A stretch of DNA of 64,000 nt from Variovorax sp. RA8 (GTDB taxonomy: Bacteria > Pseudomonadota > Gammaproteobacteria > Burkholderiales > Burkholderiaceae_C): assembly GCF_901827175.1 (NCBI RefSeq), contig NZ_LR594662.1, forward strand, positions 1,922,001 through 1,986,000, given 5' to 3'. Numbering within the stretch: the stretch's first letter is position 1; every line of letters starts with the position of its first letter. The notes beneath the pieces were generated by a model. The model made no database searches. It saw only the letters and a program-made list of their open reading frames with translations, and was not told the DNA's origin. A program made the translations under genes and the position numbers. This document shows, piece by piece, positions 11,803-53,087 of this stretch.

Positions 11803-12059
11803 GCGTTCATGCTATCGAAGCGCGCCGATGCCGATCGGGACGGGGTCGGATACCTGACGGAAAGCACGAGCCATGCCGGGATGCGTCGCCGATCTCGGCG
11901 CGCCGGAGCGCCTGGCTGGCGCACAATGCGGGCGCGCAAATTGCTTGAAGACTTGCGCAGAGTAGAAGCGTTCAGCCCGGCAACCCAGTCCTGGTGCCCG
12001 CGGCGGGAAATTGCTCTTTCATGGTCGTCACCCCACGCAATCGAAGGAGTTCCTTTCCC

Positions 12060-43712: not shown

Positions 43713-45230
43713 ATGTCCACTTGGCTGACCTCGGCTCTTCAGAGCGAGCACTGGGCGGTGGGCGACCAGTCATGGTCGCGCAATCCGGCAACGGGTGTCT
43801 TCGAGCTGGCCGACTACAAAGGATGGGGCGCGCCCCCGCCGGCGTGCGACCCCCTCGACCTGGCGCCGCTGGTGGGCGCCCGCGTGAGCGTCGACGGGCC
43901 GGATCGGGCAGGCCAGTCCGTCGCGCTCTATCCCGGAGCCTTCAAGTTCTCTCCCGTGACGGGCAAGGCGCTGCCCGCGCCATCCGTCGCCCACCGGGAC
44001 ACCTGGCTGCCGCCCTTCGGCGGCGACAGTTCCGCCGAGGATGCGCCGCAAGGGCTGCGCCTGACGTCCGCGCCTCTCGCGCTGCGCTCGACGCTGACCA
44101 TCGAGTCCCTGCCGGACCGCCAGCTGGCGGCACCTCCGGCGGGCCACTATCAATTTCTCGTCAGCGCGTGCCAGACCTGCGACGCCCGGTTGCTCGCGCT
44201 GGAGTTTTCGCGGGGTCGCATCTACCACTGGCTGCCGCACTCGGAACGCTGGCTGGAGCTCCGTCCGGCCGGCGCGCAGGCACTCGGCAGGAGCTCTCTC
44301 GGCGAGCAGGCTTGGGGCATGGCGGTGCATGATCCGCAGGGCGCCAGCAGGATCTTCATGCCGACCGACGATGGACTGGCCATCGTCTCCATCAACCTGA
44401 TCGCCGGGACCTTCGAGCTGCACATCGTCGGCACACGCTGCCTGGGCGCACCCGTCCTGTGGCAGGGCAAGGTGTACGTGCCGATGCTGCAGGAAGACGG
44501 CAAGCTCGGCGTCCATGGCCTGGATCCGTCAGGCACTGCGCTTCGCCGCGTCGAGGGGCCGGTGCTCGATGCCGCGTCGGCCGCATGGGTCCGCCCGCTG
44601 GCGGATCGCCGGCAGATCGTCTGGATGTCGGCGGTGGGCCAACTGGTCGTCAAGCCCGGCGGCGGTGGCGCGTTCGAAGCATCCCTGCTGCCCTGGCCGA
44701 GCGGCATCGTGCCGAACTTCGAGCTAGGCAGCCCCTACCTGTCCCGCAGCGGCCACCTCTGGCAGCAGTGCGCGCTGCAGGACGAGGGCAACGGGAGCGA
44801 AGAGGGGCAGCGGTTCGCCTTCGTTCAACTGGGGCTCGGCGAGCCGGAGATCAGGCCGGCCAGTTCGCCTCGGCTCAGCACCGGCGCCGCGTGCTTCCAG
44901 CTCGATGCACGCCTGCGGATCGCGCCATGGTTCGATGCCGACGACTGCATGGATTCCGATGCCGGCGAAGTGATCATTCCCTTGCTGGAATCGACCTCGG
45001 CATCGACCGTGCTGTGCGCGCGCGTGGCGAGCACCGCGCCGGTCGACAGCCTCTTCGCCTCGAACGAATCGCACACCGCCACATTCGAGCTGCATGGCGA
45101 GCACGACGTGCAGTTCTGGGTCGCCCGCCTGCCGCGGCCGTGGGCGACGCAACCCTTCGTCTACTCGGGCTACCTGTATCTCTATCACCCGGACAAGCGT
45201 CGATTGCCCGGCTGGCGGATCGACCCATGA
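43713..45230 (+). CDS. Unrecognised 505-residue protein, propeller-like repeats
   Basis: I do not recognise this protein. It has no signal peptide or membrane segment, so it is likely cytoplasmic. From about residue 150 onward it shows repeated short strand patterns of the type LVSACQTCDARLLALEFSRG, GKVYVPMLQEDGKLGVHGLD and RQIVWMSAVGQLVVKPGGG, which suggest a beta-propeller. One CxxC pair (CQTC, about residue 152) could bind a metal. The C-terminus ends FVYSGYLYLYHPDKRRLPGW. It lies 24 bp before a zinc-ribbon membrane protein gene, and a TAXI receptor gene follows, so the three probably act together. ATG 43713 lacks a good ribosome site. Confidence 0.75.
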   Translation: MSTWLTSALQSEHWAVGDQSWSRNPATGVFELADYKGWGAPPPACDPLDLAPLVGARVSVDGPDRAGQSVALYPGAFKFSPVTGKALPAPSVAHRDTWLPPFGGDSSAEDAPQGLRLTSAPLALRSTLTIESLPDRQLAAPPAGHYQFLVSACQTCDARLLALEFSRGRIYHWLPHSERWLELRPAGAQALGRSSLGEQAWGMAVHDPQGASRIFMPTDDGLAIVSINLIAGTFELHIVGTRCLGAPVLWQGKVYVPMLQEDGKLGVHGLDPSGTALRRVEGPVLDAASAAWVRPLADRRQIVWMSAVGQLVVKPGGGGAFEASLLPWPSGIVPNFELGSPYLSRSGHLWQQCALQDEGNGSEEGQRFAFVQLGLGEPEIRPASSPRLSTGAACFQLDARLRIAPWFDADDCMDSDAGEVIIPLLESTSASTVLCARVASTAPVDSLFASNESHTATFELHGEHDVQFWVARLPRPWATQPFVYSGYLYLYHPDKRRLPGWRIDP

Positions 45231-45253
45231 GCGGTCCTTGACCTTTCTCGAAC

Positions 45254-46000
45254 ATGGCGCACCTGGCGGAACTGGACCTGGCGTTTTCGCAGCCGTGCAA
45301 GCGTTGTGCGCAGCTGCTGTATGGGCGCGTCAAGTTCTGTCCGTACTGCGGCGGCGAGAACGATGCGCCCCGGTGGGGGGACGAGGCAGCGAACACGGCT
45401 TTCGGGCCCGGGCACGCGGCCTCTGATTCCGCCGAGCCGGCACCGTCGCCGGCGGAAGAGCTGCTCATCGTGCCGCGCCACGAAGCGCCGGAGACGACCG
45501 ATCGTCCCATCCTCGAGGTCCGCAACGAAGCCCGGGAGGAGGCGGACCTCGACATCGCCCATATCGTCCCCGCTGCCTTCGAGTGGCCCGAAGAGCTGCC
45601 GGTCGCGACCACGACGGTGCAGCCGCGAGCCCTGGCGCCGCGCCGTGGCCCGATGCTGAAGTACGCCGCGATCGGGGTGGCGATGGCCGTCTCCGTGCTC
45701 GCCCTGATCCTCGGTTATGTCCGTTCCGGCCAGGAGAGCGTGGCGCAGCGGTCGAAAGCGCCGACGGCGCAGCAGCCCCAGCCGCAGAGTGCGCCGGAGC
45801 TCCCCACCCAGGCACCGCGGGGCGCAGAAGTGACGGCCGCCGTTGTCCCCGCCCCGGTCGCTGCCGTCCCGGCGCCGGTCGCGCCGGTCGCTGGCGCCGC
45901 CCCTGCACCGGCGGTGCCTGCGCAGGAGCCCGGCAAGGCCGGGTGCAACGAAGCACTCGCGGCATTGGCCCTGTGCCCCGACACCGGGAGCGCGCGTTGA
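45254..46000 (+). CDS. Zinc-ribbon single-pass membrane protein with C-x9-C tail
   Basis: A 248-residue protein. An N-terminal zinc ribbon has Cys15-x2-Cys18 and Cys29-x2-Cys32 (PCKRCAQ and FCPYCGG). An acidic linker follows, a transmembrane helix spans about 134-155 (YAAIGVAMAVSVLALILGYV), and a Pro/Ala/Gln-rich segment leads to a C-terminal CNEALAALALC (231-241). The predicted topology is zinc ribbon inside, tail in the periplasm. The tail motif recurs at the C-terminus of the next gene's product, which is periplasmic, so the two may meet there. Function unknown. Confidence 0.8.
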   Translation: MAHLAELDLAFSQPCKRCAQLLYGRVKFCPYCGGENDAPRWGDEAANTAFGPGHAASDSAEPAPSPAEELLIVPRHEAPETTDRPILEVRNEAREEADLDIAHIVPAAFEWPEELPVATTTVQPRALAPRRGPMLKYAAIGVAMAVSVLALILGYVRSGQESVAQRSKAPTAQQPQPQSAPELPTQAPRGAEVTAAVVPAPVAAVPAPVAPVAGAAPAPAVPAQEPGKAGCNEALAALALCPDTGSAR

Positions 46001-46073
46001 AGGGCGCGAGCCGCGCCTCGCGTGGGCCATGCCCGGCGCCGCGACCCCACCAGGAATCCTCGAAGGAGCCAGC

Positions 46074-47159
46074 ATGCCCATCCGATCACTGTTGACGGGA
46101 CTGATGTGGATCGCCCTCCTGCCCGCGGCCCTCGCGGCGCCGCCCAGGGCCGAGTACAAGATCGTCACCGCGTCGAAGAGCGGCACCTACATCCAGATCG
46201 GCCGCGACCTCGCCAAGTGGGTGGCGGAGCCCGCCGGCATCGATCTCGAGGTGCTGGAATCGAAGGGTTCGGCCGAGAACGTGCATCGCATGCGCTTCGA
46301 GCAGGGGGTCAAGCTCGCGCTGGTGCAGTCCGACGTCTACCAGGCCTTCCTGGACGAGGCGAAGGCGGGCAGCGCCGACGCGGGCAACATCATCCGGCCG
46401 CTGCGGCTCATCATGCCGCTCTATGACGAGGAGATCTACTTCGTCGCCCGCGCCGACTCGCCGCTGAACTACATCCATGAGATCAGGAACCGGAAGATCA
46501 GCGTCGGTGCGCTCGGCAGCGGCACGGCGCTCACCTCGAGAACGCTCTACCAGCTGATGTTCGGGGAGCCGCTCCCGCCGGCCAACACGGAGTACCTGAG
46601 CAACGAGGAGGCGCTCGCCCGGCTCACCGTCGACAAGTCGATCGACGTCGCCATCATCGTGGCCGGACAGCCCGCCAAGCTGTTCACCGACATGAAGCCC
46701 GAGGCGCGCAACTTCATCAAGATCCTGAAGCTGGACGAGAAGGCGCCGGAGACCACGCGCGCGAAGAAGACCTACTTTCCCGCGACCATCCGCGCGGCGA
46801 GCTACGCCAACTGGCTCGCGGCCGATATTCCCACCCTGACCGTCAAGGCCTACCTGGTCACCTATGACTATGGCCTGCAGTCCACGGTCGGCAACCTGGT
46901 GCGCTTCGCGGATTCGCTCTGCACCAATTTCGACATGCTCCAGGCCAACGGACACCCCAAGTGGAAGCAGGTGAAGCTGGAACTGCCTGCACTGGGCCAG
47001 GGCTGGCGCTACTACCCGCCGATGGAAAAGCGGTTGCGCGCCTGCATTTCATCCCAGGCAGCGTCGAGGGTAGGGGCCTTTGGCAAGGCAGCCGCACCAT
47101 CCCAGCCCCGACGCCCCTGCACGGAGCAGGAACTGGTGCTGGGCATCTGCAACAGGTGA
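46074..47159 (+). CDS. TAXI-family TRAP-type solute receptor without membrane subunits
   Basis: A 361-residue periplasmic protein with a signal peptide ending near ALAAPP. The family signature IVTASKSGTYIQIGRDLAKW opens the mature part, and VLESKGSAENV, LALVQSDVYQAF and ALGSGTALTSR follow. TAXI proteins are ligand receptors for TRAP carriers, but no DctQ/DctM-like gene is present. At the C-terminus is an extension with CTEQELVLGIC (349-359), a cysteine pair spaced exactly as in the zinc-ribbon protein upstream. I infer a sensing or signalling job instead of transport. GAAGGAG precedes ATG 46074. Confidence 0.87.
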   Translation: MPIRSLLTGLMWIALLPAALAAPPRAEYKIVTASKSGTYIQIGRDLAKWVAEPAGIDLEVLESKGSAENVHRMRFEQGVKLALVQSDVYQAFLDEAKAGSADAGNIIRPLRLIMPLYDEEIYFVARADSPLNYIHEIRNRKISVGALGSGTALTSRTLYQLMFGEPLPPANTEYLSNEEALARLTVDKSIDVAIIVAGQPAKLFTDMKPEARNFIKILKLDEKAPETTRAKKTYFPATIRAASYANWLAADIPTLTVKAYLVTYDYGLQSTVGNLVRFADSLCTNFDMLQANGHPKWKQVKLELPALGQGWRYYPPMEKRLRACISSQAASRVGAFGKAAAPSQPRRPCTEQELVLGICNR

Positions 47160-52085: not shown

Positions 52086-53087
52086 TCAGTCGTCGTGGTC
52101 CTTGTCCTTGTCCCTGCGCTGGTCGGTAAGGAAATCGAGCGTGGCCTGCCAGGTCTGCGGCGAGTTCAGGATGCCGAGGTGGCCGGTGCGCAGGATCGGG
52201 TCGTAGGCGCCTTGCCCGGTGAGCACGAGCTCGCGCGCACCACGCAGGCTGGCGCTTCTGGAAAAGTCGGTGGGCTTGCCGAAAGAGTCCACGGCGGGCA
52301 CCGGCGCCACCGCGCCGTCCTGCACCGGAAAGTAGACGAAGCTGGCGTCGCCGTTGCGGATGACCAGCACGCGGGTGGGCCCGTCGTTCTCGCGGCCGCC
52401 GTTGCGGCCGTTGAGCAGGCGCAGGAAAAACGTGTCGGGCGAGCCCAGCTCCCGGCACACGTCGCTGGTCGGGGTGAAGCCGCCCGCCGCCGGCGCCTGG
52501 AAGTAGTTGGCGGGGTCGGGGGAGCAATTGATGATGCCGTGGTTGGGGCCATCGATCGCCACGAAGCGGCGCACGAGGTGCTGCGCCTCGTCCTGCCGCA
52601 TCCATTCGCGCGCCAGCGTCACGCCGAGGCTGTGGCCGACGATGTCCACGCGCTTCGCTCCGGTGAAGTCCATCACTGCCCGCACGAAGCGGCGCAGGTC
52701 CGGCACATTGGCCGCGTTGGTGTGGGCGATGCTCGAGCGGCGCGTCTGGTCCGAAGCGAGGTCGCACTGGTCGCCCTGGTAGCCGACGCCCCAGAGCTCG
52801 CTGGTGGAGTAGCCGTTGTCGGCGAGGAATTGCGCAAGCGCCTGGATGCGCCCGTAGGGGCTGCAGGCGGTGGCGAACGGCGTGTCGTTGTTGCCGTGGA
52901 TGAGGATCACCGGCGTTCGTGTCACCGCGCCGGCGGCACCGAAGCCGATGAGCGGCCTGGCGAGCGAGGTGTCTTCGATCGAAGGAAAGCCGGGCGGCAG
53001 CGTGTTGCCCACGATCCCCGCCGCATGCGCGGCGACCGTGGCGACGAAGGCTGCAAGGGCGGCGGCATGGCGAATCCACGTTTTCAT
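52086..53087 (-). CDS. Secreted alpha/beta-hydrolase (lipase-like)
   Basis: The 333-residue protein has a signal peptide (cleavage near AHAAG). The oxyanion-hole HGN (64-66) follows the first core strand ILIHGNND, the nucleophile elbow is GHSLG with Ser153, and a late His in TGHLGILNSP completes the triad. Cysteines at 75, 108 and two later positions could form disulfides. The fold resembles triacylglycerol lipases and extracellular polyester-degrading hydrolases of Burkholderiales. The acidic/basic tail DKDKDHDD is unusual. Its ribosome site AAGGAG lies inside a remnant of another hydrolase gene just upstream. Confidence 0.87.
   Translation of the reverse strand: MKTWIRHAAALAAFVATVAAHAAGIVGNTLPPGFPSIEDTSLARPLIGFGAAGAVTRTPVILIHGNNDTPFATACSPYGRIQALAQFLADNGYSTSELWGVGYQGDQCDLASDQTRRSSIAHTNAANVPDLRRFVRAVMDFTGAKRVDIVGHSLGVTLAREWMRQDEAQHLVRRFVAIDGPNHGIINCSPDPANYFQAPAAGGFTPTSDVCRELGSPDTFFLRLLNGRNGGRENDGPTRVLVIRNGDASFVYFPVQDGAVAPVPAVDSFGKPTDFSRSASLRGARELVLTGQGAYDPILRTGHLGILNSPQTWQATLDFLTDQRRDKDKDHDD

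Follow-up and report, generated by a model that had tools for sequence, protein, structure and literature searches.

The 64,000-nucleotide stretch of Variovorax sp. RA8 analysed here (the window; contig NZ_LR594662.1, positions 1,922,001 to 1,986,000 of the forward strand) carries three same-strand genes, P1, P2 and P3, which encode a beta-propeller protein, a zinc-ribbon membrane protein and a receptor of the TAXI family, and which are separated by 23 bp (P1-P2) and 73 bp (P2-P3). P2 and P3 end in matched tails with two cysteines nine residues apart (C-x9-C, or CX9C), and the adjacency of the two genes, taken together with these tails, suggests at the level of sequence that the two proteins dock to each other to sense and not to import. 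P2 and P3 might well form a membrane-docked, non-transport TAXI receptor, a reading that we regard as a serious possibility and hold tentatively. In the following, G labels denote genomes and L labels fetched loci, G000 being the window's own genome (7.42 Mb). The features are:

43713..45230, + strand: P1, 505-residue beta-propeller protein without signal peptide, optional partner (open reading frame; propeller model; found in 12 of 101 Variovorax genomes)
43920..43973, + strand: P1 residues 70-87 (VALYPGAFKFSPVTGKAL), aligned by eye with a CPxCG zinc-knuckle stretch seen in P1 relatives (L121, L191), whose cysteines it has lost
45254..46000, + strand: P2, 248-residue zinc-ribbon protein with a single transmembrane stretch, directly 5' of the receptor gene (open reading frame; 28-row alignment; upstream of P3 in most loci)
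45296..45349, + strand: zinc-ribbon motif of P2, residues 15-32 (CKRCAQLLYGRVKFCPYC) (sub-threshold Pfam matches; conserved in the 28-row P2 alignment)
45656..45721, + strand: putative membrane-spanning stretch of P2, about residues 135-156 (Kyte-Doolittle maximum 2.38)
45944..45976, + strand: C-x9-C tail of P2, CNEALAALALC, residues 231-241 (both cysteines invariant in 28 rows)
46074..47159, + strand: P3, 361-residue TAXI receptor (TIGR02122 and PF16868; model and fold search)
46074..46136, + strand: putative signal peptide of P3, residues 1-21 (hydrophobic N-terminus)
47118..47150, + strand: C-x9-C tail of P3, CTEQELVLGIC, residues 349-359 (both cysteines invariant in 25 rows)

P2, P3 and their shared tails

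P3 scored above the curated cut-offs of two TAXI profiles (TIGR02122, 113 bits against 84.35; PF16868, 114.8 bits against 27), and its structure model, made from a 44-row alignment, reached a predicted local distance difference test score (pLDDT) of 91.2 and has the TAXI/GluBP two-domain fold. The top seven rows of a Foldseek search with this model were all TAXI chains (8u79, 9ibo, 8s4j, 4ddd, 1us4, 9ibp), with E-values from 1e-19 to 3e-17. An earlier inspection of the DNA letters and translations, here called the sequence-only reading, had singled out the three genes and taken P3 to be a TAXI receptor and P2 to be a zinc-ribbon protein of the membrane; the open reading frames confirm the genes as real, and the profile and fold searches and the P2 sequence, with its zinc-ribbon motif and one transmembrane stretch, agree with it. 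G000 contains one TAXI protein above the cut-off. P3 is present in 44 of the 101 Variovorax genomes (46 minus the weak matches in G043 and G081), and the P2-P3 pair also occurs elsewhere in the order, in further genera and families, its surroundings varying between species. In G079 and G013 (L085-L090), TAXI genes are cut at contig ends and each genome has several such pieces, pointing to at least two near-identical copies.

P2 carries its zinc-ribbon motif close to the N-terminus, where the best zinc-ribbon Pfam match reaches 16.6 bits against a cut-off of 27. The ribbon is gone from the P2 of L094, L099 and L104, which keep the transmembrane stretch and the tail, and it was not found in the P2 of L157. 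At L104 (G030:C15) the P2 frame, judged by eye, opens with the apparent first residues of P1; the propeller and the ribbon are missing and the transmembrane stretch, tail and TAXI gene are kept, as if propeller and ribbon had been deleted in one event.

The two proteins end in CNEALAALALC-PDTGSAR (P2) and CTEQELVLGIC-NR (P3), with similar letters between the cysteines. The sequence-only reading had missed these matched tails, and no other feature of the two sequences hints directly at a contact between P2 and P3. Mitochondrial twin CX9C (CHCH) proteins carry two CX9C motifs within a single chain, which form a disulfide hairpin. The tails of P2 and P3 would resemble them in the spacing of the cysteines, in their short helical segments and in lying in an oxidising compartment, and differ from them in that each of two separate proteins brings one CX9C, their pairing being a proposal.

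According to the proposed arrangement, P3 would be exported and bind a small ligand, probably a carboxylate, and P2 would span the inner membrane once, with its zinc ribbon in the cytosol and a proline-rich or helical arm plus the tail in the periplasm, an orientation suggested by the kind of motifs at its two ends. The matched tails, carried on flexible linkers, would hold P3 to P2 by pairing as two short helices or by serving as two docking tags, each closed by a disulfide. P2 would then transmit the ligand state of P3 to the cytosol, and some species would have the P1 propeller there, at the zinc-ribbon side of P2.

The tails were tallied in 40 Variovorax-clade loci (the window, L068-L091 and L093-L107), which come from 35 of the 44 P3-bearing Variovorax genomes; the other nine are G029, G037, G042, G067, G068, G073, G075, G076 and G094. 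P3 was tailed at all 38 readable ends, P2 in 34 of the 36 loci with readable upstream DNA, and both partners in 32 of the 34 loci where both could be read. Records counted already (L110, L111, L113, L115, L116 and L117) were left out, L219 duplicates L096, a single genome (G030) supplied both L103 and L104, and L162 and contig-cut loci went uncounted where an end was missing. Outside the tally stand L112 and L114, further strains with both tails, and L092, which is of the Tubulin_2 type. Among other genera of the family (11 loci, L152-L162, drawn from 150 genomes searched), P3 was tailed in 11/11 and a tailed P2 lay upstream in 9 of the 10 readable cases. Further out in the order (L120 and L177-L180; 250 genomes searched), four of five P3 and three of five P2 were tailed, both of them in two of five loci. 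As well, a named plasmid of Variovorax SRS16 (L215) carries both tails.

Such tails are confined almost wholly to this pair within the material scanned: among the 1118 called genes of at least 100 residues in the fetched loci, 83 have a CX9C in their last 40 residues, 82 of them being P2 or P3 and the remaining one an unrelated gene (L100:2649). Ordinary TAXI proteins, a sample from a long list of weak matches (26-28% identity; L163, L165-L170), bear the tail in 0/7 cases, and six of the seven adjoin a protein with a strong DctM match (all but L166 examined). L164, with an assembly gap in its TAXI gene, and L171 (33% identity, an odd long frame, no tail) were excluded from these seven. In a tree of 44 TAXI proteins, four ordinary ones split from the other 40 with support of 100/99. 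The tail-less TAXI of L180 groups among the 40, which makes a secondary loss of the tail likely there, although its branch is long.

The recurrence of P2-P3 adjacency and of paired tails across genera and families contradicts the notion that three unrelated genes are neighbours by chance, as does the position of the window-type P1, directly upstream of the pair in 11/11 cases. Chance would fit the differing location of the pair between species and the frequent lack of P1, but we consider it scarcely credible and rejected it.

Several observations weigh against the proposed arrangement. P2 has no CX9C at L079 (also fetched as L117, the same record) and L177, no P2 was found at L093, and none lies upstream of the TAXI gene at L153, in whose genome another locus (L164) has a tailed P2 and, after it, the beginning of a TAXI gene that enters an assembly gap. 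At L120 the TAXI protein is tailed and no tailed partner was found, at L180 P2 is tailed and the TAXI protein is not, and on plasmids of Caballeronia SBC1 and M1242 (L214, L218) a tailed TAXI stands with a zinc-ribbon partner without CX9C. In the structure model, the P3 tail forms a short helix (351-355), beyond which the residues as far as the second cysteine are non-helical; confidence is lower here (block means 61-81). The charges flanking the transmembrane stretch of P2 are +1 and +2 and leave its orientation undecided, and no kinase or other recognisable output domain was detected in P2 with Pfam or NCBIfam. The loci with a single tail speak against an inter-chain bond being obligate, and, with a short-helix tail, a disulfide may lie within each tail or between the two.

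These observations also bear on another explanation, in which the tails are a shared tag and do not pair directly: each would be a short, glycine-capped helix closed by its own disulfide, and one and the same third periplasmic partner would bind them. The P3 tail model, a short helix followed by a turn ahead of the second cysteine, is in keeping with this, as are the loci where the TAXI protein keeps its CX9C and P2 has none (L079, L177, L214, L218 and L120) and the likeness of the two tails, which look as two copies of one tag would. However, in most loci the genes for the two tailed proteins adjoin each other, and the 1118 locus genes include no third one with a tail save the single unrelated match, the rest of the genomes lying outside that scan. 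A shared tag seems unlikely to us, while still deserving attention.

The sequence-only reading had seen in the three genes a signal relay across the membrane. This is so far without support, given the undecided orientation of P2 and its lack of a recognisable output domain. Orphan solute-binding proteins can stimulate sensor kinases. A general statement on solute-binding proteins with sensor kinases is found in the available part of a published text (PMC9602780). Similar to such proteins, P3 would be periplasmic, has no transporter of its own and possibly works with a membrane protein; unlike a sensor kinase fed by a binding protein, P2 has no kinase domain that the profiles recognise.

Candidate permeases for P3

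No DctM or fused DctQM lies within the window, and tblastn with two TAXI-type permeases matched none of 58 loci of the P2-P3 kind, against six of seven ordinary loci. Across G000, 16 DctM matches fall into 15 loci, all of which (15/15) contain DctP, and GltS (PF03616) has no match. A free TRAP permease or GltS in G000 was accordingly rejected. The sequence-only reading had stated that TRAP membrane subunits are absent, which holds for the whole genome in that no TRAP permease is left for P3; the pairing of the receptor with a distant DctQM operon, which it had named as a threat to its view, was not observed, since every DctM locus already has its DctP.

TAXI proteins are treated as transporter receptors in the part of a 2018 review that was available (PMC5812351). 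In the accessible text on the TAXI-TRAP system VcGluP-VcGluQM, a tyrosine, a serine and a glutamine are described in the VcGluP pocket (PMC11574862), and they correspond, by sequence alignment via a Thermus protein, to Y39, S66 and Q85 of P3. Over 44 TAXI rows S66 is invariant and Y39 and Q85 are conserved in at least 90%, and a carboxylate-like ligand of P3 is plausible. P3 has the TAXI fold and the pocket residues in common with VcGluP; it differs in having no fused DctQM partner and in possessing the C-x9-C tail and a single-transmembrane zinc-ribbon partner.

P3 might still serve transport by feeding a permease that is encoded far away or has escaped recognition, with P2 as an accessory; GltS, as in Bordetella pertussis, would be an example. 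The TAXI-GltS pair of that species is an experimentally studied precedent, and the part of the paper available mentions orphan TRAP receptors, the partner there being a transporter (PMC12344293). The retention of the likely pocket residues would suit a transport role, and so would the co-occurrence of the two genes in Variovorax, which speaks against a non-transport receptor: P3 is present in 14 of 15 genomes with GltS and in 30 of 86 without it (p 2e-5, uncorrected for kinship). The TAXI protein of B. pertussis, like P3, stands beside something other than a TRAP permease. However, GltS is missing from G000 and 29 other P3 genomes (30/44), and it is next to P3 in none of the 14 Variovorax that have both, where the two genes are on separate contigs or over 100 kb from each other. 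With DctP at every DctM locus of G000 as well (the permease families examined being DctM and GltS), transport by P3 appears distinctly improbable.

P1 and the Tubulin_2 operons

P1 was modelled as a beta-propeller from about residue 125 to 505, its first 120 or so residues being barely covered in the fold comparison, and it has no Pfam or NCBIfam match. A propeller without a recognisable signal peptide, as the sequence-only reading described it, is what both the model and the sequence give. The gene is present in 12 of the 101 Variovorax genomes, and in 11 of them P3 begins 0.8-1.0 kb downstream on the same strand; it is absent from 33 of the 44 P3-bearing Variovorax. P1 is, therefore, an optional third gene of the P2-P3 pair. 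The claim of a three-gene system thus stands in part: the genes are conserved well outside the strain, with relatives in other Variovorax, other genera and other families, while the conserved unit is the P2-P3 pair, which P1 accompanies in 11/44 P3-bearing Variovorax. The second threat that the sequence-only reading had named, a trio confined to this strain, was not borne out either.

P1 relatives that are unlinked to P2-P3 lie in Tubulin_2 operons in 7/7 cases, namely in G090 (the twelfth Variovorax) and in six genomes from the 399 of the order searched (G156, G340, G511, G539, G593 and G619). The operon in these Burkholderiales (L092, L120, L121 and L190-L193) consists of a P1 relative, a 'VQNSGWM' protein without Pfam match, a small transmembrane protein and Tubulin_2. 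A zinc-ribbon transmembrane protein is present in five of the seven (L092, L120, L121, L191 and L193); at L190 only its C-terminal part was called, and L192 was viewed over too short a distance. The P1 of the window (P0001) is homologous to the versions in these operons (E 3e-62 with that of L092, E 1e-35 with that of L121). Where the window P1 reads KFSPVTG, the relatives in L121 and L191 have a CPxCG stretch, which Zn_Ribbon_1 matches below cut-off (E 0.008 and 0.002). A plasmid search with the P1 of L092 yielded no relative at E 1e-3. Beside the Tubulin_2/TAXI locus of L120 (1670-1945, + strand) lies a gene for an exported-looking protein of 91 residues with three Cys-Tyr-Ser repeats.

The joint occurrence of P1 and zinc-ribbon transmembrane proteins in two settings supports, and does not prove, a contact between them. 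A full homology between the P2 of TAXI pairs and the zinc-ribbon protein of Tubulin_2 operons was considered and rejected; the ribbon is all that aligns (27 columns, probability 96).

The whole module might be an offshoot of a Tubulin_2 envelope machine, from which P1 and the zinc-ribbon transmembrane protein would have been taken, the TAXI protein reporting the envelope or metabolic state to such a machine. The operons of the unlinked P1 relatives and their zinc-ribbon proteins are in favour of it, as is G340, where a tailed TAXI lies about 1 kb from the P1 of a Tubulin_2 operon on the divergent strand. It is opposed by the distribution of Tubulin_2, which has no match in G000 and is present in 1/101 Variovorax, by the restriction of the alignment between the two P2 kinds to the ribbon, and by the lack of P1 from most P2-P3 pairs. 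An origin of this kind is, in our view, a long way from probable.

We take FtsZl1, a name used for FtsZ-like proteins, to be PF13809 (Tubulin_2). A paper of 2010 describes FtsZl1 operons with vWA proteins, and its main text, in the form available, contains no occurrence of propeller or zinc ribbon (PMC2875224). The Tubulin_2 operons considered here would be of this type and hold P1 relatives and zinc-ribbon transmembrane proteins, whereas G000 has no Tubulin_2. No paper was found that joins TAXI or binding proteins with a zinc ribbon, or tubulin-like proteins, zinc ribbon, operon and vWA; most subscription journals were outside these searches, so that absence from print is not implied.

Related pairs and what they may mean

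Non-permease partners of TAXI proteins may be more general. A TAXI protein of Rhodobacter CZR27 is 33% identical to P3, and relatives of it occur in Paracoccus seriniphilus (60% to the Rhodobacter protein), Azospirillum ramasamyi (33%) and A. thermophilum (33%). The four genes (L216, L220, L221 and L222) each lie 26-34 bp downstream of one hypothetical protein, which is coiled-coil-like in Rhodobacter and Paracoccus, has a sub-threshold Sel1 match in A. thermophilum and has no match in A. ramasamyi. Both partner and TAXI end in cysteine in Rhodobacter and Paracoccus; in Shinella the upstream frame does so and the TAXI does not, and the Azospirillum pairs have no cysteine-ending tails. CX9C was seen in none of the alphaproteobacterial pairs examined (Rhodobacter, Paracoccus, Shinella and Azospirillum). 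No TRAP permease is annotated in the stretches viewed for the four TAXI genes, but in Paracoccus the stretch runs, some 3 kb off, into a further gene for a TRAP binding protein, so that a TRAP system may lie nearby.

It is conceivable, if rather doubtful, that TAXI receptors also act outside transport across several proteobacterial groups, each of them encoded directly downstream of its own dedicated partner. Among Burkholderiales, a split C-x9-C connector, a twin CX9C hairpin divided over two proteins, would then yield a transmembrane receptor of a new type, extended in some species by a cytosolic propeller that is related to a component of Tubulin_2 operons; in Rhodobacter and Paracoccus, the partner would be a coiled-coil protein and both would end in cysteine.

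Around the module, the stretch 5' of P1 (39877-43575) holds FAD-oxidoreductase-like, Bug/TctC-like binding-protein and divergent LysR-like genes, named by eye from their translations, and the gene 3' of P3 is on the opposite strand. Elsewhere, a xanthine riboswitch aptamer (RF03054) lies at 11955-12021 (+ strand; 52.8 bits against a gathering score of 36). A tRNA-Gly called by ARAGORN at 52862-52937 (+ strand) is antisense within a lipase-like open reading frame (52086-53087), has no Rfam match at the gathering threshold and is probably a false call.

TAXI proteins are routinely annotated as transporter subunits, a label that does not seem to suit the tailed group to which P3 belongs. Thanks to the matched tails, docking can be tested directly. 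If P2 and P3 do dock, their tails would represent a simple, new means of attaching soluble receptors to membrane proteins, and would give a handle on the unexplained zinc-ribbon and propeller proteins, those of the Tubulin_2 operons included.

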